The notes under the pieces were generated by a model that saw only the letters and a list, made by a program, of their open reading frames with translations, did no database searches and was not told the origin of the DNA. Shown piece after piece: positions 10,323 through 61,700 of a DNA stretch of 64,000 nucleotides. Numbering within the stretch: position 1 is the stretch's first letter; each line of letters starts with the position of its first letter. Origin of the DNA: Kitasatospora fiedleri (GTDB lineage Bacteria > Actinomycetota > Actinomycetes > Streptomycetales > Streptomycetaceae); the NCBI RefSeq assembly GCF_948472415.1, contig NZ_OX419519.1, positions 806,001 to 870,000 of the forward strand, given 5' to 3'. The translations under genes were made by a program, and so were the position numbers.

Positions 10323-10341
10323 GCACCCCGGGCCGAGCACC

Positions 10342-10383
10342 CGGCAGCGCTCCCGGCCGGTCCACCGGCCGGGAGCGCTGCCG
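10342..10383. terminator. Strong bidirectional terminator, 19-bp perfect stem
   Basis: Arms CGGCAGCGCTCCCGGCCGG (10342-10360) and its exact complement (10365-10383) with a TCCA loop, between the convergent secreted-protein gene and the cupin gene. It ends the RiPP-like operon on the minus strand. Confidence 0.88.
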
Positions 10384-10387
10384 CGCG

Positions 10388-10717
10388 TCAGTCGACGATC
10401 AGCAGGGTGGCGCCGTGCTCGGTGCTGGAGCGGTGCGCCTCCCGCTCGTCGGCGACCTGGTAGCTGGCGCCCTGCGGGGTGACCACCACCCGGCCGTCGT
10501 CCAGCGTGGTGGTCAGCTCGCCGCCCAGCACGAACAGCACGTGGCCCTTGCGGCACCAGTGGTCGGCCGCGTAACCGGGGCTGTACTCCACCAGCCGCAC
10601 CCGGACCGCGCCGAAGTGCCGGACCCGCTGGCTGACGGTGCCGCTCTCGCCGGGCCTGACCTCGGCCGGCACCGCGCTCCAGTCCGTCGAGGTGAAGTCG
10701 AACCCGTCCAGTCTCAT
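10388..10717 (-). CDS. DHCW-motif-type cupin protein, last gene of the RiPP-like operon
   Basis: 109 residues, ATG at 10717. Single cupin barrel: SQRVRHFGAVRVRLVEYSPG, then ADHWCRKGHVLFVLGGELTTTLDDGR (the D-H-x-C-like turn that names the family; here D-H-W-C), and EREAHRSSTEHGATLLIVD. Small cupins of this type are enzymes or metal-binding proteins without an assigned reaction. It follows the methyltransferase by 82 bp on the same strand and precedes the operon terminator at 10342-10383. It is therefore likely the last gene of the DUF692 cassette, although the gap is larger than the overlaps among the other genes. Confidence 0.82.
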   Translation of the reverse strand: MRLDGFDFTSTDWSAVPAEVRPGESGTVSQRVRHFGAVRVRLVEYSPGYAADHWCRKGHVLFVLGGELTTTLDDGRVVVTPQGASYQVADEREAHRSSTEHGATLLIVD

Positions 10718-10799
10718 CGCCGCTCCCCGTCCCTCTCCGCTGTTCGACGGCCTGCTCGACGGCCTGCTCGATGGCCTGCTCGGTGGCCTGCTCGACGGC

Positions 10800-11579
10800 C
10801 TACTTGATGGCCAGGATGCCCTCGAAGTGAAGGTACTTCTGGATGGTGGAGATGCTGGTGAAGCCGACCCGGCGCAGCAGTTCGTGGGTCTCGGCGCTGC
10901 GCTGCGGGGCCATCACCGACCGCAGGCTGTGCGCCTTCTGGTAGATCTCGCCGGGGTCGAAGCCGTTGTCGAACTTGAACTCCGCGTAGAGCTGCTGAAC
11001 GATGTCCTGGGTCCGCGAGTCCGGCTCCAGGGTCTTCTCGAACAGCAGCAGGCCGCCGCCCTCGACCAGGCCGTCGCAGACCATCCTCATCGCGGTCTGC
11101 CGGTCGCCCGGCGGCAGGAACTGCAGCGTGTAGTACATGATGACGGCGTTCGCGCCGCTGTAGTCGACCGAGAGCATGTCGCCCTGGCGGATCGTCACGT
11201 TCTCCAGCTCGCGGCAGCGCTGGCGGGCCACCCGCACCATGTCCGCCTCGATGTCGAAGCCGATCAGCGACACGTCCTTGCAGCAGTCCTTCGCGGCGAT
11301 CTGCGCGAGCAGGGTGCCGGTGGAGCAGCCGACGTCGATGATCAGGCCGCCGCGCCGGCTGAAGAACTCCACGCACTGGCTGATCAGGGCGTGGCCCTCG
11401 GCGTACAGCGGGACGCTCTTGCTGACGTGGTTGTCGAACTTCTGCGGGGTGCCGCCGGAGAAGCTCCAGCGGGTGTCCACGGGCACGATGCCGTCGCCGA
11501 CGTCCAGCAGGTCGGACGTCTCCCGCAGCACGGCCAGGTCCGCCGTCAACGCGGGGAGGCTGTCGGTCGCTTCACTCAC
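10800..11579 (-). CDS. CmoA-like SAM-dependent methyltransferase
   Basis: 259 residues. The GTG at 11579 overlaps the exporter stop (GTGA). Class I fold: LIIDVGCSTGTLLAQIA (SAM loop), LIGFDIEADMV, and YTLQFLPPGDRQTAM. It aligns along its length with CmoA, the carboxy-SAM synthase of tRNA wobble modification: FDNHVSKSVPLYAEGHALI, FKFDNGFDPGEIYQKAHSLRSVM, ETHELLRRVGF. CmoA has Arg after Q-K in that last region (QKRS); here it is QKAH, so the carboxylate-binding function may be lost and a plain SAM methyl transfer is as likely. There is no CmoB partner nearby. Its place in the operon points to modification of the peptide or its product. Confidence 0.85.
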   Translation of the reverse strand: MSEATDSLPALTADLAVLRETSDLLDVGDGIVPVDTRWSFSGGTPQKFDNHVSKSVPLYAEGHALISQCVEFFSRRGGLIIDVGCSTGTLLAQIAAKDCCKDVSLIGFDIEADMVRVARQRCRELENVTIRQGDMLSVDYSGANAVIMYYTLQFLPPGDRQTAMRMVCDGLVEGGGLLLFEKTLEPDSRTQDIVQQLYAEFKFDNGFDPGEIYQKAHSLRSVMAPQRSAETHELLRRVGFTSISTIQKYLHFEGILAIK

Positions 11580-12952
11580 GGCGTCTCCTGGAGGCGGTCG
11601 GTCCCCTCGGCCGCCGCCCACGCCGCGGCCTGCGGCGGGCCCGGGGGCCGGGGGTCGGTCGGGGCGGGGATCTCCAGTCCGAGCGCGGCGGACCGGGTGA
11701 GCACCAGGAACGCCAGCACCGCGAGGGCGACGGCGCCGAGGGCGAAGGTGGAGCGCAGGCCGAACCAGCCGACGCACAGGCCCGCCGTCATCGCGCCGAC
11801 CGGGAGCGAGCCCCAGGCCAGCATCCGGTAGACGCTGGTCACCCGGCCGAGCAGTTCCTTCGGGATGGTCGACTGCCGCAGGGCCAGGCTGACCGAGCTG
11901 AACTGCACCACCGCGAAGCTCGAACAGCTCAGCGCCAGCACGGTCAGCAGCCGGCTGCTGGCCAGCAGCATCACCGTCTGGTCGACGGCCTGCAGGCCGA
12001 CCGCGAGGGCCAGCGCCCGGGTGACGCCCAGCCGCTCGGCGATCCGGCCGGAGACCAGCCCGGCGAACACCCCGCCCGCCGCCGCGCAGGACAGCAGCAG
12101 GCCGAACCCGGCCTTCCCCAGGTGCAGCACGTCGTGCGCGTACAGCACCATCACGGCGTTGGTGGCGCCGGTGAAGAAGTTGATGGTCGCGGAGGAGGCC
12201 GACAGGAAGCGCAGCGTGGACTCGCCCCACATCCAGCGCAGCCCCGCGCCCGCGTCCCGCAGCACCCCGCGCACCCCGGGCCGTTGACCCGCCGCCGCGG
12301 GGGCGGCCTGCTCGGCGGGGGCGGTGCGCAGCCCGGCGAAGGCCAGCAGCACCAGGACGCCGGAGAGGCCGAACGAGACGCCGTCCACCACGAACGGCAG
12401 CGAGACCGCGGCGGCGAACAGCAGCCCGCCCAGGGCCGGACCGAGGAACTCGGTGCCCAGCGTCTCGGCCGCCATCAGCCGCCCGTTGGCGCGCACCAGC
12501 CGCTCGGCCGGGACGAGGGCCGGCAGCGTGGTCTGGACGGCGGTGCGGAACACCGTGTCCGCGGCGGCCAGCAGGAAGAGGGTGACCAGCAGCAGCGGAA
12601 TCCGGGCCACCCCGGCCAGCAGCGAGAGCACCACCAGCAGCAGCAGGGCGCTGCGGGTGAAGTCCAGGCCCGCCATCAGGCGGCGGCGGTTCATCCGGTC
12701 GACGGCGACGCCGCCGACCACGCCGAGCAGCAGGTACGGCAGGGTGACGGCGACCTGCGCACCGGCCACCACGGTCGGGTTGCTGTTCAACGAGAGCACC
12801 AGCAGCGGCCCGGCGGTCAGCAGCACGCCGTCGCCGACGCAGGAGACCAGGCTCGCCGCCCACAGCAGGCCGTAGCGGCCGGAGAGACCCGAGCGGCCGG
12901 AGCGGCCGGCGTGGTCCGGGCCGTCGGCGCGGGCGGGGCGGACGCTCAGCAC
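11576..12952 (-). CDS. MFS exporter of the DUF692 cassette
   Basis: 458 residues with the hydrophobicity of a 12-helix major facilitator. The GTG at 12952 overlaps the partner-protein stop by 7 nt. Family signs: SLVSCVGDGVLLTAGPLLVL (helix 1), loop VDRMNRRRLMAGLDF between helices 2 and 3, DTVFRTAVQTTLPALVPAERLVRANGRLMAAETLG (typical of drug/macrolide-type exporters of the MefA-like branch), and a second half beginning about LRFLSASSATINFFTGATNAVMVLYA. By position it should export the modified peptide product. Its stop overlaps the methyltransferase start, so stoichiometry is coupled. Confidence 0.92.
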   Translation of the reverse strand: MLSVRPARADGPDHAGRSGRSGLSGRYGLLWAASLVSCVGDGVLLTAGPLLVLSLNSNPTVVAGAQVAVTLPYLLLGVVGGVAVDRMNRRRLMAGLDFTRSALLLLVVLSLLAGVARIPLLLVTLFLLAAADTVFRTAVQTTLPALVPAERLVRANGRLMAAETLGTEFLGPALGGLLFAAAVSLPFVVDGVSFGLSGVLVLLAFAGLRTAPAEQAAPAAAGQRPGVRGVLRDAGAGLRWMWGESTLRFLSASSATINFFTGATNAVMVLYAHDVLHLGKAGFGLLLSCAAAGGVFAGLVSGRIAERLGVTRALALAVGLQAVDQTVMLLASSRLLTVLALSCSSFAVVQFSSVSLALRQSTIPKELLGRVTSVYRMLAWGSLPVGAMTAGLCVGWFGLRSTFALGAVALAVLAFLVLTRSAALGLEIPAPTDPRPPGPPQAAAWAAAEGTDRLQETP

Positions 12953-14004
12953 GGGGCCACGTCCAGCAGGCCCCACTCGGCCAGCGAGCCGAGCAGGCCG
13001 CGCAGGCCCGCGTCGGCGGGGTCGAGTCCGACGCCGGCGGCGATCTCGGCCAGCGGCAGCCCGGCGGCGAGGCCCTCGGCCACCCGGGCGGCGGGGGCGC
13101 CGATGCCGGTCAGGGCGTACAGCTCGGCCGACCCGTCGAGGCGGACCAGCACCGCCCCGGACCGCTCGGGGGCCCGGTCGAGCCCGCCCCCGACCGGATC
13201 GGCGAGCCACCCCAGGACGTCGCGCTCCCACCGGACGACCGCCCCGCGCCCGGTCCAGCGGTACTCCCCGCCACCTGCCCCCGCCGGGGCCGCCCCGGCC
13301 GGGGCACCGGGCTCCGGAGCGGGACCGGCCGAAGCGTCGCCCGCCGCGACTGGACCGGCCAAGTCACCGCCCGCCGGGGCGGATTCGGCCGAAGAACCAC
13401 CCCGCGAGGCGGACTCGGCCGAAGCGCCGGGCTCCGGAGCGGGACCGGCCGAAGCGTCGCCCGCCGCGACTGGCTCGGCCAAGTCGTCGTCCACCGGGGC
13501 GGGTTCGGCCGGAGCGCCGCCCGCCGGGGCCGTCCCCGGCGTCGCGCTGCGGGCGATCAGTTCGGCGGCGGTGCGTTCCAGTCGCAGTACGTCGCGCAGG
13601 GCGGCGGTGGAGGGCCCGGTGGGGAGGGTGCGGTCGAGGCGGTGCAGGTACTCGGCGGTGACGGTGTAGACGTACGGGCCGCGGTCGGCCCAGCCGGTGG
13701 CCGTCACGTAGTCGGTGACCAGGGCGTCGGGGTCGTGGCCGAGCTGGCGCAGGGCGCGGGCGGTCAGCGGGGCGCCCTCGGCGACGGCGGCGCGGGTGAC
13801 GCGCAGCAGGCGGTAGCGGTAGGCGTCGACGGCCCACTGCACGCCGGGGCCGTTCTCGGCGTACACGGCGGCGATCTCGGTCTCGGCCGGGGTGAGCCCG
13901 AGGTCGGCGGCGCGGGCCCGGACGTCGCCCGCGACGACGGCGTCGGCCAGCGCGGGTTCGCGCAGCACGCGCCGCCACAGCCGCCAGGTGTGTTCGGCCT
14001 TCAC
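12946..14004 (-). CDS. DUF692 partner protein with periodic linker and PqqD-like C-terminus
   Basis: 352 residues. The GTG at 14004 overlaps the DUF692 stop (GTGA). The N-terminal ~145 residues are helical (WRLWRRVLREPALADAV, VYAENGPGVQWAVDAYRYRLLRV) and correspond in position to MbnC/TglI-type partners of DUF692 enzymes. Then comes an Ala/Pro/Glu/Ser linker with a 10-residue period and a 40-residue duplication. The last ~95 residues (GAVLVRLDGSAELYALTGIGAPAARV, LPLAEIAAGVGLDPA, LLGSLAEWGLLDV) look like a PqqD-type RiPP recognition element, which would bind the leader of the precursor. Assignment as partner rests mainly on context and the fused recognition-like domain. Confidence 0.7.
   Translation of the reverse strand: MKAEHTWRLWRRVLREPALADAVVAGDVRARAADLGLTPAETEIAAVYAENGPGVQWAVDAYRYRLLRVTRAAVAEGAPLTARALRQLGHDPDALVTDYVTATGWADRGPYVYTVTAEYLHRLDRTLPTGPSTAALRDVLRLERTAAELIARSATPGTAPAGGAPAEPAPVDDDLAEPVAAGDASAGPAPEPGASAESASRGGSSAESAPAGGDLAGPVAAGDASAGPAPEPGAPAGAAPAGAGGGEYRWTGRGAVVRWERDVLGWLADPVGGGLDRAPERSGAVLVRLDGSAELYALTGIGAPAARVAEGLAAGLPLAEIAAGVGLDPADAGLRGLLGSLAEWGLLDVAPC
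13327..13520 (-). repeat. 30-bp/120-bp tandem repeat in the partner-protein linker
   Basis: The element CGGCC-GAAG recurs every 30 bp (about 13327, 13356, 13386, 13416, 13446, 13476, 13506). The block ending ...GCTCCGGAGC-GGGACCGGCC-GAAGCGTCGC is duplicated 120 bp apart. It encodes the period-10 linker (E/D-x-A-x-P-A-x-G-x). The reading frame is kept throughout, so the repeat is coding. Confidence 0.85.
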
Positions 14005-14930
14005 GCCCGCGCCTCCGTCCCGGCGGTGGTGCGGCGGCTGTGCGGGCCGTAGACCCGGTCCCAGATGGCGGCGGCGCGTTCCAGGTCGCCGAGGATGAGT
14101 TCGGCGTCGGCGAGCGGGTCGAGTTCGCGGGTGCGGGAGGAGTGGGCGCGGCCCTGGACCTCCAGGACGACGGCGCCGGGGCGGGAGCGTCCGAGCAGGT
14201 CCTCCAGGGTCTCCCAGACCGGTTCGGGCACCCGGGAGTCGTGCCAGTCGTGGTAGGTGCCGCCGGACCAGCTGCCGCCGGCGACGTGCACCTCGACCAC
14301 CCGTTCCAGGGGCAGCCGGTCCAGGTAGGAGGCCAGGGTGTAGCGGCCGAAGTTCACCGCGTTGGTGTGGATGTTGTGCAGGTCGATGTGCAGGTGGGTG
14401 CCGGCCTTCTCGACCAGCGCGGCCAGGAAGTCGGGCTCGTCCAGGTCGGCGCCGGGGCAGGGCACGTAGTAGGCGGCGTTCTCGTGCGCCAGCGGCACGC
14501 CCAGCAGTTCCTGCAGGCGGGCGGCGCGGCCGGCCAGCCGGTCCACCTCGGCGCGGGAGAACTGCACCGGCGAACTCCACATGTCGGACCAGGAGCCGTC
14601 CCCGTAGAAGCAGTGGTCGCTCATCCACGGGCTGCCGAACAGCTTCGCGGCGGGGACGTGGCGCAGGACGGCGGCGGTGCGCTCCAGCGGTTCGAAGCCG
14701 AACTCGGCGCCGTAGTTGGAGTGGGCGATCACGGTGGGCTCGGCCGCCACCAGGGCGTCGATCTCGTCGAGCCGGTCGGGCAGGATGACCTGCGGGCTGT
14801 CCAGCGGCGCGATCACCGTGTCGAGCAGGACCTCGACGGCGTCGATGCGCGACTCGTGGAAGGGGAACCACTCGGCGACCTCGGGGTTGTACTGGAGCCC
14901 GATGCCCAGTGGTGCTACTGGCCCGCTCAA
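14001..14930 (-). CDS. DUF692 (MNIO, MbnB/TglH-like) peptide-modifying iron enzyme
   Basis: 309 residues from a TTG at 14930 with GGAGG 8 nt upstream; a GTG at 15023 is in frame but lacks a ribosome site. TIM-barrel enzyme using two or three irons and O2 to rewrite Cys or other residues of ribosomal peptides. Expected metal-ligand segments are present: VIAHSNYG, SDHCFYGDGS, PLAHENAAYYVP, LHIDLHNIHTNAVNFG, VEVHVAGG, DWHDSRVPEPVWE and VVLEVQGR. It lies between a Cys-ending peptide gene and a gene for a probable partner, the standard arrangement of methanobactin, 3-thiaglutamate and related pathways. Overlap with the partner gene (GTGA) supports an obligate complex. The reaction cannot be read from the sequence. 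Confidence 0.9.
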   Translation of the reverse strand: MSGPVAPLGIGLQYNPEVAEWFPFHESRIDAVEVLLDTVIAPLDSPQVILPDRLDEIDALVAAEPTVIAHSNYGAEFGFEPLERTAAVLRHVPAAKLFGSPWMSDHCFYGDGSWSDMWSSPVQFSRAEVDRLAGRAARLQELLGVPLAHENAAYYVPCPGADLDEPDFLAALVEKAGTHLHIDLHNIHTNAVNFGRYTLASYLDRLPLERVVEVHVAGGSWSGGTYHDWHDSRVPEPVWETLEDLLGRSRPGAVVLEVQGRAHSSRTRELDPLADAELILGDLERAAAIWDRVYGPHSRRTTAGTEARA

Positions 14931-15055
14931 AGGTGCTGCCCTCCGGTTCTCCGCGGTGTGCGGGTGCGGGCGGTGCTGCTCGGTGGCCGTGGCGATCAAG
15001 AACCGCCGCTGGGGCAGCGGCACGCTGCCGACGTCGTTGTGGTGCGGATGGCTCG

Positions 15056-15074
15056 GGGGCGCGCTCGGCGCCCC
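15056..15074 (-). terminator. Attenuator-like hairpin after the peptide gene
   Basis: A 7-bp perfect stem, GGGGCGC (15056-15062) with GCGCCCC (15068-15074), and a 5-nt loop, 16 nt downstream of the peptide stop. There is no T tract. A stem here often lets a short precursor message outnumber the downstream enzyme message. Confidence 0.5.
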
Positions 15075-15089
15075 GCGTCAGACGCCGTT

Positions 15090-15152
15090 TCAGCAGGTGG
15101 GGTTGCGCGGGGTCTTGGCCTCGCGGGTCACGATGATCGTGGTGGTCTCCAT
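15090..15152 (-). CDS. Candidate RiPP precursor peptide, 20 residues ending in Cys
   Basis: METTTIIVTREAKTPRNPTC, ATG at 15152 with GGAAGGGGG 8 nt upstream, TGA at 15090-15092. It is 159 bp upstream of the DUF692 start and the first gene of the cassette. The N-terminal half (hydrophobic/charged, TTTIIVTREAK) would serve as leader; the C-terminal PRNPTC is the probable target with a single, C-terminal Cys. DUF692 enzymes commonly act on Cys, and TglHI acts specifically on a C-terminal Cys. It is unusually short even for this class. The call rests on position, ribosome site and the terminal Cys, with no sequence match that I recognise. Confidence 0.6.
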   Translation of the reverse strand: METTTIIVTREAKTPRNPTC

Positions 15153-15667
15153 GTGCGTCACCCCCTTCCCGGGATGTGGCATCACGCCGCGAGCGGTTCT
15201 TGACCAGCAGGGCCACCGAGGGGTGCTCCCGCCGACCGAAGTCCACCACCGGGGACCGGTCGGCACCAGACGGTCCCGGCCGGGCAGGACACCATTCGGC
15301 CGACACGCCGCAGCCATGCGCCGTTCACACATCGGGCCCGCCCCGGGGGGTGCACGCCTGGCCGGAACACCTGGTCAACTTCCGTTCAGAAAACGGGAAA
15401 TGACGTGGCGTCACTTTTGTCCGCGCCCCGAACACGGCCGAAAAGCGGCCACCGGCCGACCCCGGGAGTCCCGCCCGCCCCACCCGTGCGGAACCGTACG
15501 CTCCGGCCGGTCCGGGGCGTCCGGCGGAATCCCGCGAACGCCGCCCGCGGGGCGCAGCGGTGGCCCATGATGTGGCAACACCACCGCCGGCCCGCCGACG
15601 CACCACCGCCGGCCCGCCGACGCACCGCCGCCCGGGCGGGCGCGCCCCGGAGAGGACGAGGGACCCC
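15153..15667. promoter_or_regulatory. Divergent intergenic control region between the peptide and methyltransferase genes
   Basis: 515 bp with no convincing gene. It holds the only sensible promoter space for the RiPP-like operon. Seen: TGACGTGGCGTCA (15401-15413, 5-bp palindromic arms), a minus-strand TTGACC at 15372-15377 without a good -10, an A+T-richer patch at 15388-15420, and a perfect 22-bp tandem duplication at 15579-15622. Confidence 0.45.
15579..15622. repeat. Perfect 22-bp tandem duplication
   Basis: The unit CACCACCGCCGGCCCGCCGACG occupies 15579-15600 and again 15601-15622, 46 bp before the methyltransferase start. A third partial copy (CACCGCCG) follows. No function is evident. 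Confidence 0.9.
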
Positions 15668-16509
15668 ATGGACGTCCAGTTGGACTACTTCTCCCAGCAG
15701 CACTGGAACCGGGTGGCCGAGGCCCGCGGCCACGGCTCCTGCGACGTCGGCGCCGACCTCGCCGCCTCCCTGGTCGCCACCGTCGCCGAGACCGCCCCCG
15801 GGCCGTCCTCGACATCGGCTCCGGCAACGGCGCCCTCGCCACCGCCCTGGCCACCGCCCTCCCCGGCGCCCGGGTCGACGGCCTCGACTACTCCGACACC
15901 GCCGTCCGGCTCGCCACCGAGAACGCCCGCGCCCACGCCGCGCCGGACGTCCGCGACCGGCTGGCCTACACCGTCGGCTCCGCCCTCGAACTGCCGTACG
16001 AGGACGGGCGGTTCGACGCCGTCACCATGCTCAAGACCGCCTGGGTGCTGCCCGACCTGGGCGCCGCCCTGGCCGAGTGCCGACGGGTGCTGCGCCCCGG
16101 CGGGCGGATCTTCCTGCAGTCCTGGGGCGAACCGGAGTCCTGCCCGGTGCTCACCCTGAGCGGCGCGGTGCTCGGCGCGGCGATCAGCGGCTTCGAACTG
16201 CCCGACGAGGCGATGGCCCCGTTCGAACTCACCGCCGACCTGGTCACCGCCGAACTCGCCGCCGCCGGGCTGCCGCTGGCCGACCGCCGCTCCTTCGACC
16301 GGGACGTCCCCGCCGCCACCCCCGCCGAGTACTGGGAGCAGCTGCGCTCGCTGGCCGGCACCGCCTACTGGGCGTTCGCCGTCCAGCCCCCCGAGTTCAA
16401 GGACCGCCTCGACGCCGGCTGGCAGCAGCTCAGCGCCGCGCACGCCGACGCGGCGGGCGTCCGGCACCTCCCGCTGGCCTGGCACGTGTCGATCGGACGC
16501 CGCGCCTAG
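15668..16509 (+). CDS. SAM-dependent class I methyltransferase, one apparent base missing
   Basis: 280 residues after correction; ATG at 15668 with GGACGAGG upstream. The frame breaks at the SAM loop: residues 1-44 (MDVQLDYFSQQHWNRVAE...) are in one frame, while VLDIGSGNGALATALATALPGARVDGLDYS onward is in another. Adding one G to the GGG at about 15796-15798 joins them as APG-AVLDIGSGNG and gives exactly 281 codons, so this is most likely a sequencing error. Further motifs: FDAVTMLKTAWVLPD, RRVLRPGGRIFLQSWGE. UbiE/MenG-like small-molecule methyltransferase; substrate unknown. It is divergent from the RiPP-like operon and may or may not belong to it. Confidence 0.82.
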
Positions 16510-16656
16510 GACCTGTCGCGCGCCGGGTCCGCTCTCAGCCGGTCCGGCGGGGTGAACCGTCTGCGCCCCCTCCGCCCCGGACGGCCGTGCCAGGCTGGTA
16601 CCGGCGCGGCCCGCACCGGACCGGGCCGGCCGGATCGTCGAACGGAGCGTCAGCCG

Positions 16657-49700: not shown

Positions 49701-52700
49701 AGCCTCGTCACCCGACACCACGACCGCGTCCGGCGCGTTCACCGCCGCCACTCCACACCAGGCACCAGCGACTCCGCCACCTCCTGGACGCGACGCCTGC
49801 ACCGACACCATCGCCCCACCACCGGCAACCCCTGCATCAACCGACCGGTGCTCACCAGGACACAGGCATCCTCCAGGGACAGCACCCCCGCCACATGGGC
49901 CGCCGCCACCTCGCCCACCGAATGCCCCACCACGAAATCCGGCCGAACCCCGCCACTCCACCAGCCGGAACAACGCCACCTCCAACGCGAACACCGCACC
50001 CTGGGTGAACCGCGTCTCCCCAACACCCCCTCCCCGTCCTCGAACAGCACCTCCACCGGCAACCCCAACAGCCCGCACACCTCGTCCAAACCCGCGCGAA
50101 CACCGGAAACACCCGTACAGACCCCGACCCATCCCACCCACTGACCACCCTGACCGGAGAACACGAACGCCGACGCCCAGGGGAGGCGGCAGTGCCCGTG
50201 ACGGGTCCGGGCTCTCCGTCGATCAGCGCGTCCAGGCCGGCCGGGCCCGTCAGCACGGCACGGTGCGGGAACCGGGCCGCGCGGCCAGGTCGGCGGCCAC
50301 CTCGGCCGGTGTGACCTCGGGGTGCTCGGCGAGGAACCCGCGCAGCCTGCGGGCCTGTTCGCGCAGCGCCGCGTCCGACTTGGCCGACAGCAGCCACGGC
50401 ACCGGCACGGCGACCACGGGGGTGGCCGTGGCGGTGGCCTCGGCCGGTGCCTCGATCACCACGTGCGCGTTGGTGCCGCTGATGCGAACGCCGAGACGCC
50501 CGCGCGGCGGGGACGCCCGGTCTCCGGCCACGGCCGGGCCTCGGTGAGCAGGGCGACCCGGCCCGCCGACCAGTCGACGTGCGAACTCGGCTCATCCACG
50601 TGCAGGGTTCGCGGCAGTTCCCCGTGCCGCATCGCCATCACCATCTTGATCACACCCGCCACACCCGCCGCGCCTGGGTGTGCCCGATGTTCGACTTCAC
50701 CGACCCCAACCACAGCGGCTCGGAACGGTCCTGACCGTACGTCGCCAGCAGTGCCTGCGCCTCGATCGGATCACCAGCGTCGTGCCGGTGCCGTGCGCCT
50801 CCACCACGTCCACGTCCGACCCCGACAGTCCCGCGTTCGCCAACGCCTGCCGGATCACCCGCTCCTGCGACGGACCGTTCGGCGCCGTCACCCGTTCGAC
50901 GCACCGTCCTGGTTGACCGCCGAACCCCGCACCACCGCCCGCACCCGGTGACCGTTGCGCCGCGCATCCGACAACCGCTCCAACAGCACAGACCGGCACC
51001 CTCACCCCACGCGTCCGTCCGCCGCCTCCGCGAACGCCTTCACCCGGCCGTCGGCCGCGAGGCCGCGCTGGCGCGAGAACTCGACGAACCCCGATGGCGT
51101 CGCCATCACGGTCACCCCGCCGGCCAGCGCCAGCGAGCACTCCCCGCCCGCAGCGCCTGCGCCGCCAGGTGGATCGCCACCAGCGACGACGAGCACGCCG
51201 TGTCCACCGACACCGCCGGACCCTCCAGCCCCAGCAGGTACGACACCCGCCCGGAGGTGACACTCGTCGCCGTACCGGTCGAGAGGTAGCCCTCCAGGTC
51301 GGGCGGCTGTGCCCCGGCGCCGTAGCCCGAAGACCAGATGCGGTGAACACGCCCGTCCGGCTGCCCCGCAGCGAGGTCGGGTCGATCCCGGCGTCCTCGA
51401 ACGTCTCCCACACCGTCTCCAGCAGCACCCGCTGCTGCGGGTCCATCGCCAACGCCTCACGCGGCGAGATCCCGAAGAACCCGCATCGAACCCGTCGCAT
51501 CCGCGAGGAAACCACCCCATCGCGTGTACGACCTCCCCGGACCACCCGCCGGATCGTAGAGACGACCCACGTCCCACCACGGTCCGACGGGAACTCACCC
51601 ACCGCGTCCACCCCGCCCGCGACCAAGCCCCACAACTCCTGCGCCGAGCCCACCCCACCGGATACCGGGCCCCCAACCCCACCACCACGACCGGATCACC
51701 CGACACCGCGACCCGACCGGCCCGGGCGCGGCGGGGGCTTCGCGCCGGGCGCCGAGCAGGAGGCCCGCAGGTGGCCGGCCAGTGCGTCGGGGGTCGGGTA
51801 GTCGAAGACCATCGTCGCGGGCAGCCGCACCCCGGCGGCCGCAGCGAGGCGGTTGCGCAGTTCCACCGCCGTGAGCGAGTCGAAGCCCAGGTCCTTGAAG
51901 GCCCGGTCGGCGCTGACGGCCGAGGTGTCGGTGTGGCCGAGGACGGCGGCCGTCTGGCCGGTGACCAGGGCCAGGACGCGGCTGTGCTGCTCGGTCTCCG
52001 GCAGGGCCGCGAGTTCCCGGCCCAGGCCCGGCCGGTCCGTGCGCCGGGCGGGCCGGGTCCGGGTGAGGCGGCTGAGCAGGGGGCGGGTGGACGCCGCCGA
52101 CAGGTCGAGGCGGGCGGGGACCAGCGCGGGTTCGGCGGCCCCCAGCGCCAGGTCGAACAGGGCCAGCGCCCGGTCCGTGGGCATCGGCAGCACACCGGCG
52201 CGGGCGAGGCGCTTGCGGTCGGTGTCGGTGAGGTTCCCGGTCAGCCCGCTGTCCTCGGCCCACTGTCCCCAGGCCAGTGACACGCCCGGCAGGCCCAGGG
52301 CGCGCCGGTGCACCGCGAGGGCGTCCAGGAAGGCGTTCGCGGCGGCGTAGTTCGCCTGGCCCGGGCCGCCCAGCACGCCGGCGGCGGACGAGAAGAGCAC
52401 GAACGCGCTCAGGCCGAGGTCCTTCGTCAGCTCGTGCAGGTGCCAGGCGGCGTCGGCCTTGGGCCGCAGCACCCGGTCGATCCGGGCGGGCGTGAGGGAT
52501 GCGACGACGCCGTCGTCGAGCACACCGGCCGCGTGCACGACCGCCGTCAGCGGGTGCGCGGCCGGAATCGCGTCCAGCACTGCCGCCAGCGCGTCCCGGT
52601 CGGCGACGTCGCAGGCCACCACCTCGGCGTCGAAGTCCACCTCCGCCGCGCTCCTGCCGAGCAGGAGGAGGTGCCGGATGCCGTGCCGCTCGCGCAGGTG

Positions 52701-55700
52701 CCGGGCGACGAGACGGCCCAGGGTGCCGGTGCCGCCGGTGATCAGCACGGTGCCGTTCGGGTCGAGCGGGCCGAGCGGGCCGGGTGCCGGGGTTGCCTCG
52801 GCCCGTACCAGGCGGGCGGCGCGGGCGGCGCCGTCGCGGACGACGAGCTGCGGTTCGTCGCCCGCGACGAGCACGCGGTCGTCGGTGTCGACGAGTACGA
52901 ACCGGTCGGGGTGTTCGGCCTGGGCCGCGCGGACCAGGCCCCAGACGACGCTGGACGGCAGGTCGACGGGGTCCGGCCGGCCGCCCCGCGGGTCACCACG
53001 GCCAGTCGGCCGTCCCCGTCGCGCAGGAAGTCCTGGAGCACGCCCAGCGTCTCGGCGGCGACGGTGTGCGCGGCCGCCACGGGGTCCCCCGCCGGAGGCG
53101 TGACGTGGTGGACGGCCGGGGCTTCGCCGGTGCTCTCGACGGGCACCCAGTCGAGGCGGAAGAGCTGGTCGGTCCCGGCGGCCGGCAGGCCAGGCGCCCG
53201 GTGGCGCACGGTCAGCGCGTCGATCACTGCCAGCGGCCCGGAGTCGTCGGCGAGCGCGACCCGGAAGGTGTCGGGGCCGGTGGGGGTGAGGCGGACCCGG
53301 GCCGTGGAGCCGGCCTTGCGCATCGACACCCCGGCGAAGGAGAACGGCAGGCGGCCGGCCGCCAGCAGGGTCAGCGGCTGGAGTGCGGCGTCGAGCAGCG
53401 CGGGGTGGAGACCGAAGCGGTCGCGGGTGTCGGCGGGCAGCGCCACCTCGGCGTAGAGCTCGTCGCCCTGCCGCCGGATCTCGCGGACACCCGCGAACAC
53501 CGGCCCGTACTCGTAGCCCTGGGCGGCGAGGTCGTCGTAGAAGTCGGTCAGGTCGACGGGTTCACCGGCCGGCTGCCAGGGCTCGCCGGTGTCGTACGGG
53601 TGGGGGCGGTCGGCGGTCGCCAGCACGCCGGTGGCGTGCCGCAGCCAACTGCCGTCCGTCCGGGAGTGCACGGTGACGGGGCGTCGGCCCGTCCCGTCCG
53701 GTGCGCCGACGACGACCTGGATCGGCACGGAACCGTCCTCCGGCAGGACCATGGGGGCTGCCAGCACCAGTTCGTCCAGGACGTCGCAGCCGACCTGCCG
53801 TCCGGCGTGCAGGGCGAGTTCCACGAACACGGTGCCGGGCAGCAGCACGGAGCCGAGGACGACGTGGTCGGCCAGCCACGGCCGGGTGGCCGTCGAGAGC
53901 CGGCCCGTGAACAGGACGCCCTGCTCCCCGGCCAGTTCGACGGCGGCCCCGAGCAGCGGGTGCCCGGCCGGGTCCAGTCCCGCCGCCGACACGTCGGTCT
54001 TCCCGGCGGTCGGGGTCAGCCAGTACGGCCGGTGCTGGAAGGCGTACGTCGGCAGCGGGACGTGGTGGGGCTCGCCGGGGAGGACCGGCGTCCAGTCGAC
54101 GGCCACGCCGTGCGTGTGCAGGCGCGCCAGGGCGAGGTGGAACTCCTGCCTGCCGCTGCCGCGGCGCAGCGTGCCGGTGGCGGCGACGTCCAGCACCGGC
54201 ACCAGGACGGGGTGCGGGCTGACCTCCACGAACACGCCGTGCCGGTCCTGCGTGAGGGCTTCGACCGCGAGGTCGAAGCGCACGGGTTCGCGGAGGTTGC
54301 GGTACCAGTAGGCGGCGTCGAGGGTGCGGGTGTCGACCGGCTCGCCGGTGACGGTGGAGTAGAACGGGACCGCCGCCTGACGCGGCGTGATGTCGGCCAG
54401 ATCGGTGAGCAGGTGTTCGCGGATCGCCTCGACCTGCGCGGAGTGGGCGGCGTAGTTGACGGGCAGGCGCCGGGCGCGGATGCCGTCGGCCTCGCAGACC
54501 GTCAGCAGCTCGTCCAGCGCGTCCAGGTCACCCGACACGACGACCGAACCGGGGGCGTTGACCACCGCCACCGTCAGCCGACCGCCCCAACGGGCCGTGA
54601 ACTCGACGGCCCGCTCGTGCCCGAGACCTATCGACACCATCCCGCCCCGGTCCGCCAAGGCGACCAAGGCCCTGCTGCGCAGCGCCACCACCTTCGCGGC
54701 ATCCTCCAACGACAACGCGCCCGCCACGTACGCCGCCGCGATCTCCCCCTGCGAATGCCCCACCACCGCATCCGGCTCCACCCCGTGCGCCCGCCACAAC
54801 TCCGCCAGCGCCACCATCACCGCGAACAACGCGGGCTGCACCACATCCACCCGCTCCAACGAGCCACCGCCGGTCAGCACCTCCACCAACGACCAGTCCA
54901 CGTACGGCGCCAACGCCGCCTCACACGCATCGACCGCCTCCCGGAACACCCGCTCCGAGCCGTACAACTCCCCACCCATCCCCACCCACTGGGCACCCTG
55001 CCCCGGAAACACGAACACCGACCGGCCCGCCGCACCGGCAACTCCCGTGACGATGCGAGGGTCTCCGTCGGCGAGGGCGGCCAGGTCCGCCATGAGGTCG
55101 GCCCGGGTGCTGCCCACCAGGGCCGCCCGGTGGGCGAGTGCGGTGCGGGTGGTGGCGAGGGCCCGGCCGATCGCGGCCGGTCGGAGGCCGGGGTGGGCGG
55201 TGAGGTGGTCCGCGAGCCGCCGGGCCTGGGCGCGGAGGGCGTCGTCCGTCTTGCCGGACAGCAGCCACACGGTGGGCTCCGCGGAGTCGTCCGCGGCGGG
55301 CTGTTCGGGGGTCTCCTCGGGGCACTGTTCGATGACGACATGGGCGTTGGTGCCGCTGGCCCCGAAGGCCGAGATGCCCGCGCGGCGGGGACGCCCGGCC
55401 TCCGGCCACGGCCGGGCCTCGGTCAGCAGCCGGATGTCACCGGTGTCCCACTCGACGTGCGGCGTGGGCTCCTGGACGTGCAGCGTCGGCGGCAGTTCGG
55501 CGTGCCGCATCGCCATCACCATCTTGATCACACCCGCCACACCGGCGGCGGCCTGCGTGTGCCCGATGTTGGACTTCACCGACCCCAACCACAGCGGCTC
55601 GGAACGGTCCTGACCGTACGTCGCCAGCAGGGCGTGCGCCTCGATCGGGTCGCCGAGCGTCGTCCCCGTACCGTGCGCCTCCACCACGTCCACGTCCGAC

Positions 55701-58700
55701 CCCGACAACCCGGCATTGGCCAGGGCCTGCCGGATCACCCGCTCCTGGGAGAGGCCGTTGGGCGCGGTCAGCCCGTTGGACGCCCCGTCCTGGTTGACCG
55801 CCGAACCCCGCACCACCGCCAGCACCCGGTGACCGTTGCGGCGGGCGTCCGACAACCGCTCCAGCAGCACCAGCCCCGAACCCTCACCCCACGCCGTACC
55901 GTCGGCCGTCGACGAGAAGGGCTTGCACCGACCGTCGGGAGCCAGCGCGCGCTGGCGGGAGAACTCCGTGAACTGCAGGGGTGTCACGCTCACGGTCACC
56001 CCGCCGGCCAGGGCCAGCGAGCACTCCCCCGAGCGCAGCGCCTGCGCGGCGAGGTGGATCGCCATCAGGGACGAGGAGCAGGCGGAGTCGATGGAGACGG
56101 CCTGGCCCTGGAGGCCCAGCAGGTAAGAGACCCGGCCGGAGGTGATGCTCGGCGAGATGCCGGTGGCGAGGTAGCCCTCGGTGTCGGGCGGCGCCTGGTC
56201 GGGGCTGCCGACGTAGCCGGAGGACCAGATGCCGGTGAAGACACCCGTCTGGGTGCCCCGCAACGAGGTCGGGTCGATCCCGGCGTGCTCGAACGTCTCC
56301 CACGCGGTCTCCAGCAGCACCCGCTGCTGCGGGTCCATCGCCAACGCCTCACGCGGCGAGATGCCGAAGAACTCCGCGTCGAACCCCGCCGCGTCCGCGA
56401 GGAACCCACCCGACCGCGTGTACGACGTCCCCGGATGATCCGCGTCCGGATGGAACAGCCCCTCCACGTCCCACCCACGGTCCGACGGGAACTCGCCCAC
56501 CGCGTCCACCCCGCCCGCGACCAGATCCCACAGCTCCTCCGGCGACCCCACCCCACCCGGCAGCCGGCACCCCATCCCCACGATCACCACCGGATCGACC
56601 CCACCACCCACCGACGCCACCGACACCACCGGATCAACACCCTTGGGCGCGCCGGAGAGTTCGGCCGCGAGGTGGTCGGCGAGGTCGGCGGGGGTGGGGT
56701 GGTCGAAGACGAGGGTCGCGGGCAGCCGCAGGCCGGTGGCACCGGCGAGGCGGTTGCGCAGTTCGACGGAGGTCAGGGAGTCGAAGCCGAGGTCGCGGAA
56801 GGCGCGTCCGGGGGTGATCGCGGCGGCGTCGGAGTGGCCGAGGACGGTGGCGGTGTGGGCGGACACCAGGGACAGCAGGTCCGACGCGGGGGCCTTGGGC
56901 GTCGGCAGGGCCTGCGGCATCGCGAGGTCGGCCGTGATCAGTGCGGGACGTCCGGCGGCCAGCGCGGTGTCGAACATGGCCAGGGCGCGTTCGGTGCCGA
57001 GGGGGCGGACGCCCTTGCGGGCGAGGCGTCGGCGGTCGACCGCGGTGAGGTGGGCGGTCATGCCGCTCTCCTGCTCCCAGTGGCCCCAGGCCATCGACAC
57101 GGCGGGCAGTCCGAGGGCCTGCCGGTGTGCGGCGAACGCGTCGAGGTAGGAGTTCGCGGCGGCGTAGCCGGCCTGGCCGGCGTTGCCGAGCACCCCCGCG
57201 GCCGCGGAGAACAGCACGAAGGCGGCGGGGTCGTGCTCGCGGGTCAGCTCGTGCAGGTGCCAGGCGCCGTCGACCTTGGGGCGCAGCACCCGGTCGAGCT
57301 GCTCCGCGCTCAGCCGTGCCGTGACGGTGTCGTCGAGCACGCCGGCCGCGTGGACGACGGCGGTGAGCGGGTGCGCGGCCGGGATGGTGTCCAGGACGGC
57401 CGCCAGCGCGTCGCGGTCCGCGACGTCGCAGCCCACGACCCGCACGTCGACGTTCTCCAGCTCCTCCGGGTGCGGCACCGCGCCGCCGCGGCGGCTGACG
57501 AGCAGCAGGTGCCGCACCCCGTAGCGGGAGACCAGGTGCCGGGCGACGGCCTGGCCGAGGGTGCCGGTGCCGCCGGTGATCAGCACGGTGCCGTCGGGGT
57601 CGATCGGTCGGGGCACGGTGAGGACGATCTTGCCGGTGTGCCGGGCCCGGCTCATCAGCCGGAAGGAGTCGACGGCCTGGCGGAGGTCCGCGGCGGTGAC
57701 CGGCAGCGGGTCCAGCGTCCCGTCGGCGAGCATCGCCACGACCCTGGCGAGGATGTCGCCCCGCCGCGCGGGGTCGACGTCGTTGAGGTCGAAGGCCCGG
57801 TAGATCAGGCCCTCGGGCGAGCGGACGTCCGTCTTGCCCAGCTCGACGAACCGGCCGCCGGGCGCGAGCAGCCGGAGGGAGGCGTCGGTGAGTTCTCCCG
57901 CGAGCGAGTGGAGGACGACGTCCACGGCCGGGAACCGGTCGGCGAAGCGGGTGTCGCGGGACGAACCGATGTGGTCGTCCGCCAGTCCGAGGCGCCGCAG
58001 GGTGTCCCACTTGGCGGGGCTCGCGGTGGCGAAGACCTCCGCGCCGCTGTTCAGGGCCAACTGGACGGCGGCCATGCCCACCCCGCCCGCGCCGGAGTGG
58101 ACCAGGACCCGGTCGCCGGGGCGCAGTTCGCCGAGGTCGAACAGCCCGTACCAGGCGGTGGTGAACGCGACGGGCACCGACGCCGCCGCGGTGAAGCTCC
58201 AGCCGTCGGGGATCGCCGTCAGGAGCCGGTGGTCGGCGACCGCGCGCGGCCCGAAGGCGCCGGGCATCATTCCCGTGACGCGGTCGCCGGGCCGCCAGGC
58301 CGTGACGCCGGGGCCGACCTCGATGACGGTGCCGGCCGCTTCGCCGCCCAGCGGGGGCCGGTCCGGGTACATGCCGAGGGTGATGAGCACGTCGCGGAAG
58401 TTCAGGCCGGCCGCGCGCACCGCGACCCGTACCTGCCCGGGTTCCAGCGCGGCCTCCGGGCAGGGCAGCAGGGCCAGGCCGTCCAGGCGCCCGGTGCCGG
58501 ACTCGCTCAGCCGGTACGCGCCGTCGGGGGCGGCCGCTTCCGGCACGTACCTGGCCTGCCGCGGTACGAGGACGCCTTCCGGGCGCAGGGCCAGTTCGGG
58601 TTCGTCGCCGGCCGTCGTGGCGGCCCGGACCGCGTCCTGCTCGGACGCGTCGCCGACGTCGACCAGGACGAACCGGCCGGGGTGCTCGGCGGCGGCGCTG

Positions 58701-61700
58701 CGGACCAGGCCGCGCACGGCCGCGCCGGCCACGCCACGGGTCAGGACGGCCAGGCGGGCGGCCTCCCGCTCCGGGTGCTCGGCCAGGAAGTCCTGGACGA
58801 GGGCGCGGGCCCGTTGGACGAGGGCGTGCACGGAGTCCGCGTCGGCTTCCGCGGTGAGCACCGGGCTCGGCACCACCTCGGTCGGCGGGCCCGGGGTGAG
58901 GGGCACCCACCGGGTGTGCAGCACCGCGGCCCGGGCCTCGGCGGCCGGACGGACGGTCAGCGCGGTGATGTCCGCGACCGGGTGGCCGGACAGGTCGGTC
59001 AGTGTCGCGCGGTAGGTGTCGGTGCCCGTGCGGACCAGGTGGACCCGGGCCGACGACACACCGGCGGTGTGCACGGCGACGCCGGAGAAGGAGAACGGCA
59101 GCCGGACCCGGGTGTCGGGGCTGAGCAGGATCAGCGGCTGGAGCGCGGCGTCCAGGAGCGCGGGGTGGAGGCCGAAGCGGGCGCCGTCGGGGACGGACAC
59201 CTCGGCGTACAGTTCGTCCTCGCCCTGCCACAACTCCCGCACGCCCCGGAACGCCGGTCCGTACCGGTATCCGAGTCCGGCGAGGACGGCGTAGAACCCT
59301 TCGGGGTCCACGGGTTCGGCGTTCCTCGCGGGCCAGTCGAGGCGACCGGCCGTCACCTGGCCGCCGAGGGTCCCGGACGCGTGGCGGACCCAGCCGTCGC
59401 CGCCCTTGGAGTGCACGGTGACCGGGCGGCGGCCGGCGTCGTCCGGGACGCCGACCGAGACCTGGATGTCCGTGGGGGTGTCCGAGAGCGCGAGGGGCAG
59501 GTGCAGGACGAGGTCGTCCAGGGTCCCGCCGGCCAGGGTGGCGAGTTCGAGGAAGGCGGTGCCCGGTAGCAGGACCGTGCCGTCGACGGCGTGGTCGGCC
59601 AGCCAGGGGTGGGTGCGGGTGGAGACGCGGCCGCTGTGCACGGTGGTCCCGTCGGGCAGTTCGACCGTGCTGCCCGCCAGCGGGTGCCCGGTGCCGTGGT
59701 CGCCGGCCGCGGGGGTCAGCCAGTAGGTGCTGCGCTGGAAGGCGTAGCGCGGCAGCTTGACGCCGTGCGGGCGGTCGTGCGGCCAGGTCACGGCGACGCC
59801 CTGGACGTGGAGGCGGGCCAGGGCGGTGTGGAACTCCCCTGCGGCGCCGTGGTCACGACGCAGGGTGCCGGTGGCGGCGACGTCCAGCGCGGGCACCAGC
59901 ACCGGGTGCGGGCTGACCTCGACGAAGACGGTGTGGCCGTCGGCGGTGAGCCGGGCGACGGCGAGGTCGAAGCGCACGGGTTCGCGCAGGTTGCGGTACC
60001 AGTAGGCGGCGTCGAGGACGGAGGTGTCGACCGGCTCGCCGGTGACGGTGGAGTAGAACGGGACCGCCGCCGGGTGGGGCGTGATGTCGGCCAGGTCGGT
60101 GAGGAGTTGGTCGCGGATCGCCTCGACCTGCGCGGAGTGGGCGGCGTAGTTGACGGGCAGGCGGCGGGCGCGAATGTCGTCGGCCTCGCAGGCCGTCAGC
60201 AGGTCGTCCAGCGCGTCCAGGTCACCCGACACCACCACACTGTCCGCCGAGTTGACCACCGCCACCGTCAGTCGACCATCCCAGCGGGCCATGAACTCGA
60301 CAGCCTGCTCGTGCCCGAGACCGACCGACACCATCCCGCCCTGATCGGCCAGCGCCACCAGCGCCCTGCTGCGCAGCGCCACCACCTTCGCGGCATCCTC
60401 CAGGGACAGCGCGCCCGCCACGTACGCCGCCGCGATCTCGCCCTGCGAATGCCCCACCACCGCGTCCGGCTCCACACCGTGCGCCCGCCACAGTTCGGCC
60501 AGCGCCACCATCACCGCGAACAGCGCGGGCTGCACCACATCCACCCGCTCCAGCGAGCCACCGCCGGTCAGCACCTCCACCAACGACCAGTCCACGTACG
60601 GCGCCAACGCCGCCTCACACGCATCGACCGCCTCCCGGAACACCCGCTCTGAGGCGTACAACTCCGCACCCATCCCCACCCACTGCGCACCCTGCCCCGG
60701 GAACACGAACACCGACCGACCCACCGCACCAGCCACGCCGGTCACCAGACCCGGCACCGACCGCCCCTCCGCCAGCGCCCTCAACGCCTCCGCACCACCC
60801 ACCACCACGGCCCGGTGCTCGAACACCGTCCGGGCAGCCAGCGCACCCCCGACCGCCGCCGGACCCACCTCGGGGTGCGCGGCGACGAACGCGCCCAGCC
60901 GACGCGCCTGCTCCCGCAGCGCCAGCTCGGACCTGGCGGAAAGCGGCCAGAGGACCTGGTCGTCCGCGCGGTCCCGGGGAGAGGGTGCGGCGGAGTCGGC
61001 CTCGGCGGGCGGTTCGAGGGTGCTCTGCTCGATGATGACGTGGGCGTTGGTGCCGCTGATGCCGAAGGCGGAGACGGCGGCCCGCCGTGGCCGCCCGGTC
61101 CCGGGCCACGCGACCGGTTCGGTGAGCAGGCGGACCGCGTCGGAGGACCAGTCGACGTGGGAGGTCGGCGCGTCCACGTGCAGGGTTCGCGGCAACTGCC
61201 CGTGCCGCATCGCCATCACCATCTTGATCACACCCGCCACACCCGCCGCCGCCTGGGTGTGGCCGATGTTCGACTTCACCGACCCCAACCACAGCGGCTC
61301 GGAACGCCCCTGACCGTACGTCGCCAGCAGCGCCTGCGCCTCGATCGGATCACCCAGCGTCGTCCCCGTACCGTGCGCCTCCACCACGTCCACGTCCGAC
61401 CCCGACAGTCCCGCGTTCGCCAACGCCTGCCGGATCACCCGCTCCTGCGACGGACCGTTCGGCGCGGTGAGGCCGTTGGACGCGCCGTCCTGGTTGGTGG
61501 CGGAGCCCCGGACGACCGCCAGCACCTCGTGGCCGTTGCGGCGGGCGTCCGACAGGCGTTCCAGCAGCAGCAGGCCGGCGCCCTCGGCCCAGCCCGCCCC
61601 GTCGGCCGCGGCGGCGAAGGGTTTGCTGCGGCCGTCGGGCGCGCTCGCCCCCTGCCGGGACATCTCGGTGAACAGGGTGGGTGTCGCGTTGACGGTGACG

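Follow-up and report, generated by a model that had tools for sequence, protein, structure and literature searches.

A TglHI-type gene island with a naturally encoded C-terminal cysteine in Kitasatospora fiedleri

The window analyzed here, a contiguous stretch of 64 kb from Kitasatospora fiedleri, carries a gene island that we read as a RiPP variant of the TglHI (3-thia-amino-acid) pathway, with a probability of roughly 0.7. Most probably, 2-mercaptoglycine formed from an encoded C-terminal Cys is S-alkylated with a methyl or carboxymethyl group, and the peptide is exported. The novelty lies in the encoded Cys, a cassette devoid of PEARL and release protease, and the exporter; a search of the main texts of open-licence papers found no description of TglHI acting on a naturally encoded Cys. 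The sequences themselves show the homology, the active-site residues, the encoded Cys in two lineages and the island boundaries; every chemical step, the order of the steps, and export as a peptide and not as a free amino acid are inferred.

Gene content and boundaries of the island

The features of the island are listed below by window coordinates.

10329–16556, unstranded: island missing in the same-species genome G057, where both flanks are directly adjacent
10388–10717, minus strand: DHCW-motif cupin gene (NF038084, 144 bits, cut-off 70; homologues in loci L034, L038, and L059)
10800–11579, minus strand: CmoA-like SAM enzyme gene, Arg199 replaced by Ala (TIGR00740; residue map)
11576–12952, minus strand: MFS exporter gene (PF07690, E 4e-31)
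12946–14004, minus strand: TglI-type partner gene (NF058584; PDB 8hci_C match)
13277–13530, minus strand: repeat-coded Pro/Ala/Glu-rich linker of ~85 residues within the TglI gene (TRF tandem periods of 30, 60, and 120 nt; pLDDT <50)
14001–14930, minus strand: TglH-type MNIO gene (DUF692, PF05114), TTG start after GGAGGG
15022–15004, minus strand: terminator-like site downstream of the precursor (hairpin/terminator search)
15040–15092, minus strand: GC-rich hairpin region just 3′ of the precursor stop, a possible attenuator (fold −21.7 kcal/mol; weak, with a z of only −0.64)
15090–15152, minus strand: precursor peptide ORF METTTIIVTREAKTPRNPTC, 20 residues, Cys-ending
15400–15414, unstranded: near-perfect palindrome TGACGTGGCGTCA, a candidate operator in the divergent intergenic region, also picked up as a hairpin-like site
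15668–16509, plus strand: MT2, a second class I methyltransferase gene, divergent and frame-broken, within the island

An earlier note on this DNA had placed six genes here, among them a 63-bp ORF with a good ribosome site, and had described starts and stops overlapping by 4–7 nt from the DUF692 gene to the methyltransferase gene. All six lie where it put them, on the minus strand, AAGGGGG precedes the ATG of the short ORF, and the overlaps measure 4, 7, and 4 nt. The DUF692 start is found 159 nt downstream of the peptide stop, and the cupin gene starts 82 nt past the CmoA-like methyltransferase gene. The unit is nevertheless larger than that gene set; the divergent methyltransferase MT2 had been overlooked. 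Comparison with G057 reveals that the 6.2 kb missing there corresponds exactly to the cassette plus MT2; because the flanks are adjacent in that genome, MT2 belongs to the island, and the idea that it is an unrelated neighbor was discarded. The island is host-like in composition (74.6% G+C, against 74.2% for the window), and no integrase was seen among its ORFs.

The TglH and TglI proteins

The DUF692 protein matches PF05114 (E 1e-37) and, over its length, the TglH of Pseudomonas syringae (PDB 8hci_D; 404 bits, 57% identity). All ten TglH residues that PMC10880893 reports to bind iron or to be essential are kept, namely H71, N73, H107, E151, D184, N187, H216, D229, H231, and E258. Asn73 lies in an HSNYG stretch that sets the TglH group apart from ordinary MNIOs. 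Assignment to an ordinary streptomycete-type MNIO was rejected, as the MNIOs found in its genus and family are only 36–38% identical and lack the Asn73 motif; against the BufB, HvfB, ApyH, ChrH, and MbnB equivalog models the protein falls far below the cut-offs. The earlier note had envisaged a new RiPP class built on an unknown DUF692 reaction and knew of no described pathway with this gene set. Neither view is supported: a wholly new reaction was rejected on the identity to TglH and the full conservation of the active site, and both the TglH/TglI reaction and its pathway have been published (PMC9016710, PMC9303977, PMC10880893).

The partner protein matches TglI (8hci_C) with an E value of 3e-20 and the TglI model NF058584 with 74 bits (NCBIfam equivalog cut-off, 450). 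It consists of a helical N-terminal domain, the Pro/Ala-rich repeat linker, and a C-terminal RRE-like domain; none of the other TglI proteins in the comparison has the linker that separates the two domains. An AlphaFold model, for which a row from a plasmid record was left out of the TglI alignment, gave only 8hi7/8hci (TglI) as significant structural matches, over approximately 164 alignment columns. In this model, the N-terminal domain is clear and the RRE is of low confidence. Judged by sequence, the pair is TglH/TglI, with iron ligands and Asn73 in the one protein and the helical domain and RRE in the other, and the island is predicted to work like TglHI. The published TglHI reaction excises the β-carbon of a peptide C-terminal Cys as formate, leaving 2-mercaptoglycine (PMC9016710, PMC10880893).

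The precursor peptide

The METTTIIVTREAKTPRNPTC ORF adjoins the genes for the modifying enzymes, as expected in a RiPP cluster. Its third codon position is G or C in 20/20 codons (8/20 at position 1 and 12/20 at position 2), with 75% G/C at position 3 in its in-frame upstream extension. Among the 105 ATG-initiated ORFs of 15–40 residues in the 64 kb, four end in Cys; two of these are the METTTIIVTREAKTPRNPTC ORF and its own extension, and the remaining two are copies of one other ORF. The 20-residue ORF is therefore more than a chance occurrence. Profile searches returned no family match for the peptide.

In length, the natural ORF equals the minimal well-used substrate of TglHI, which consists of Met plus a C-terminal 19-mer, or 20 residues (PMC9016710). 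This match makes the natural peptide a handy substrate for studies of TglHI mechanism and structure. In laboratory experiments, an encoded Cys is accepted by TglHI and by TmoHI alike. TglHI requires a hydrophobic residue at each of two positions, 13 and 15 ahead of the Cys; by our own count, METTTIIVTREAKTPRNPTC has IIV 12–14 residues before it, and the longer peptide of the relatives described below has LVV at 15–17. Two features of the peptide speak against the TglHI-variant reading: the FxLD motif required by TglHI of P. syringae is absent (as is FxLD/E in general), and the penultimate residue is Thr, which was not in the tested set (Ala best; Val, Gly, and Ser poor). The absence of a protease from the cassette, the broken frame of MT2, and the missing Arg199 of the CmoA-like protein weigh on the same side. 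On balance, the METTTIIVTREAKTPRNPTC peptide is likely the substrate and its C-terminal Cys the target.

Related clusters

When the phylum and class to which a Kofleriaceae MAG belongs were searched, two genomes came up, G957 and G1451, belonging to one family in another phylum, whose clusters (L038 and L059) possess a homologous core. Each consists of a 26-residue Cys-ending ORF directly upstream of TglH, TglI, a DHCW cupin, a chorismate mutase, a CmoA-like protein, and MT2. Their TglH is 58% identical to that of the window, and TglH, TglI, cupin, CmoA-like protein, and MT2 are common to all three clusters. The exporter genes are of a different kind, being a divergent C39-peptidase ABC transporter and HlyD, and the chorismate mutase (PF01817) adjoins the CmoA-like gene. 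The 15 kb surrounding each locus showed no PEARL. The 26-mer ORF is identical at 81/81 nt between L038 and L059, and the flanks differ by indels; as the two genomes are close relatives, the 26-mer counts as one independent case. At the place equivalent to the hairpin downstream of the window precursor, L059 has a hairpin with a z of −3.7, and in L038 the stem is kept through an A-T to G-C exchange; Rfam gave no match.

The conservation of Cys-ending short ORFs beside homologous DUF692 genes, which the earlier note had put forward as a check, thus holds in the nearest relatives. A third relative has a different precursor, with internal Cys:

L034:9710-16211: TglH locus on plasmid plas2 of Burkholderia stagnalis YJ-2, TglH homologue 54% identical

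Here, the upstream ORF codes for a 77-residue, multi-Cys precursor that is rich in CAA repeats and ends in CAAG, from which the target is probably an internal Cys. TglI is an 867-residue fusion ending in a methyltransferase domain, and the locus further includes a CmoA-like protein, a HemN-like radical SAM protein, and the DHCW cupin. By its sequence, this locus looks like one for β-carbon excision at internal or multiple Cys residues. As its TglH goes with a precursor whose last residue is not Cys, homology to TglH is by itself insufficient to define the target.

The apparently dissimilar Burkholderia substrate, together with the very short length of the window ORF and its want of a family match, could suggest that the ORF is a leader or spurious and that the true substrate is encoded elsewhere or is a small metabolite. 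We regard this as improbable, given the third-position composition and ribosome site of the ORF, its length, which is that of the minimal TglHI substrate, and the Cys-ending ORF that clusters of another phylum have at this position.

No further actinomycete copy of P0001 was found at E <1e-45 in 70 congeners, ~395 genomes of its phylum or ~395 of its class; a search of 395 family genomes with P0001 gave a best other match of only 3e-32, and viral contigs gave none. No TglH was seen near CmoA-like plasmid loci of Phocaeicola, Aneurinibacillus, and Paenibacillus. The Kofleriaceae MAG (L003:133-2378) has a TglH homologue followed by a TglI with an extra C-terminal region, PDZ-like by eye. This contig stops immediately upstream of TglH, and any precursor would lie outside it. 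At L060:4039-9165 (genome G1416), a TglH homologue of 45% identity lies near an 828-residue protein, by eye resembling a LanB-type dehydratase or PEARL, and no short Cys-ending ORF is located directly upstream.

The capping group

The CmoA-like protein matches TIGR00740 (CmoA) with 120.6 bits, below the cut-off of 193.3, and the homology spans residues 37–259. The SAM-contacting residues of CmoA are mostly kept. Arg199, which forms a salt bridge with the carboxylate of carboxy-SAM (PMC3663124), is Ala in the window protein and Thr or Ala in the relatives (Thr in L034, L038, and L059); it is missing from every cluster member compared, and carboxy-SAM synthesis cannot simply be read from CmoA homology. 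Carboxymethylation is uncertain for this reason, and the replacement points to methylation, as carried out by TmoS. A genome search revealed no better CmoA than this protein in the genome itself.

MT2 is 36% identical to its counterpart in L038, the match being split over two frames by a one-base break near 15794–15806 in a run of C; this break may stem from a homopolymer sequencing error or be genuine. By sequence, it is a generic class I methyltransferase, with CmoB among its weakest matches, and its AlphaFold model (pLDDT 37) is too poor for use. The cassette contains no TglF/CmoB-type gene.

The capping group may be methyl or carboxymethyl, with methyl slightly favored for the window. In the first case, which we consider a little short of an even chance, the CmoA-like enzyme would use ordinary SAM to methylate the thiol, leaving S-methyl-2-mercaptoglycine at the end of the peptide; TmoS does the same ahead of the TmoD step. 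The loss of Arg199 with retention of most SAM contacts, the lack of a TglF/CmoB-type gene and the TmoS precedent are in its favor. Set against it are the conservation of two methyltransferases, reminiscent of the TglE/TglF pair, and, in L038 and L059, the chorismate mutase adjoining the CmoA-like gene. That neighbor points to prephenate, the co-substrate of CmoA (PMC10491745), and to carboxymethylation as by TglE/TglF. In the second case, somewhat less probable, carboxy-SAM would be formed from prephenate by the CmoA-like enzyme and serve MT2 as donor of the carboxymethyl group, so that the peptide ends in 3-thiaglutamate. This would agree with the CmoA fold across most of the protein, the conserved second methyltransferase and the TglE/TglF precedent for carboxymethylation with CmoA-type prephenate use (PMC10491745), but Arg199 is absent, the window cassette has no chorismate mutase, and MT2 is both frame-broken and generic in sequence. 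The pairing of CmoA-like enzymes that lack Arg199 with a neighboring chorismate mutase invites the question as to the identity of the SAM-derived group transferred.

Comparison with known pathways

The tgl pathway of P. syringae (3-thiaglutamate, TglA-I) shares with the island TglH, TglI, a CmoA-type protein, and modification of a C-terminal Cys. It differs in possessing the PEARL TglB, a reusable 50-residue scaffold with an FDLD motif, the CmoB-like TglF and the release protease TglG, whereas the encoded Cys, exporter, cupin, and different second methyltransferase are particular to the island. The tmo pathway of Tistrella mobilis (3-thiahomoleucine) likewise combines β-carbon excision by TmoHI with a subsequent methyltransferase (TmoS) and has a transporter gene, but it also includes the PEARL TmoB, the B12 radical SAM protein TmoD, and the protease TmoG. 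A PEARL ligase supplies the Cys in both pathways; encoded Cys in tmo is confined to laboratory constructs, while in the island it is natural. The MNIO RiPPs methanobactin, chryseobasin, aminopyruvatide, and bufferin resemble the island in pairing a PF05114 enzyme with a partner protein; they are set apart by the low equivalog scores and by the partner, which is TglI and not MbnC, ChrI, or DUF2063.

The island is not a pearlin cluster: the Cys is encoded in the precursor gene, the cassette has no LanB/PEARL gene and the peptide no scaffold motif, and no release protease is found in the island, although relatives have a C39-peptidase ABC exporter. Pearlins release a free amino acid (PMC9016710), and the genome itself has two loci with LanB/PEARL-type N-terminal domains, megabases from the island. 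The peptide might accordingly serve as a scaffold, an unlinked PEARL adding a residue or a protease freeing the thia-amino acid. We hold this to be quite unlikely, as Cys is already encoded, neither PEARL nor protease occurs in the island, no PEARL occurs in the flanks examined of L038 and L059, and exporter genes adjoin the clusters.

Proposed pathway

Under the TglHI-variant reading, the ribosome would make a 20-residue peptide already ending in Cys. The RRE-like domain of TglI would hold the IIV stretch, and TglH would use O2 and its iron cluster to cut out the Cys β-carbon as formate, giving a C-terminal 2-mercaptoglycine. The new α-thiol would then be S-alkylated by the CmoA-like enzyme and/or MT2, with a methyl (cf. 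TmoS) or carboxymethyl group (cf. TglE/TglF). Finally, the MFS protein would export the peptide or a fragment, the cupin presumably being a conserved accessory. The earlier proposal that the C-terminal Cys is rewritten, methylated, and exported stands insofar as the peptide is the likely substrate and the Cys the likely target, as the Cys-ending ORFs of relatives suggest, with alkylation and export plausible; its choice of methylation is one of two options that both stand.

The authors of the tmo work considered the whole peptide a possible product and argued against it, the clusters lacking peptide transporters (PMC9303977). With an encoded Cys, no cassette protease and adjacent exporter genes, whether the product is a peptide or an amino acid becomes directly testable. 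We tentatively suggest, at slightly less than even odds, that thia-amino-acid biosynthesis has a ribosomal branch, extending over at least two phyla, in which encoded-Cys peptides would be converted by TglHI and capped with a methyl, carboxymethyl, or other SAM- or prephenate-derived group. The exported peptide, with its unstable thiahemiaminal end, would be the active product, e.g., a peptidase inactivator; peptidase inactivation was suggested and left open in PMC9303977.

Elsewhere in the window, positions 50410–62569 contain long direct repeats spaced ~4.9 and 5.7 kb apart and 63–87% identical, as for a modular NRPS or PKS assembly line.
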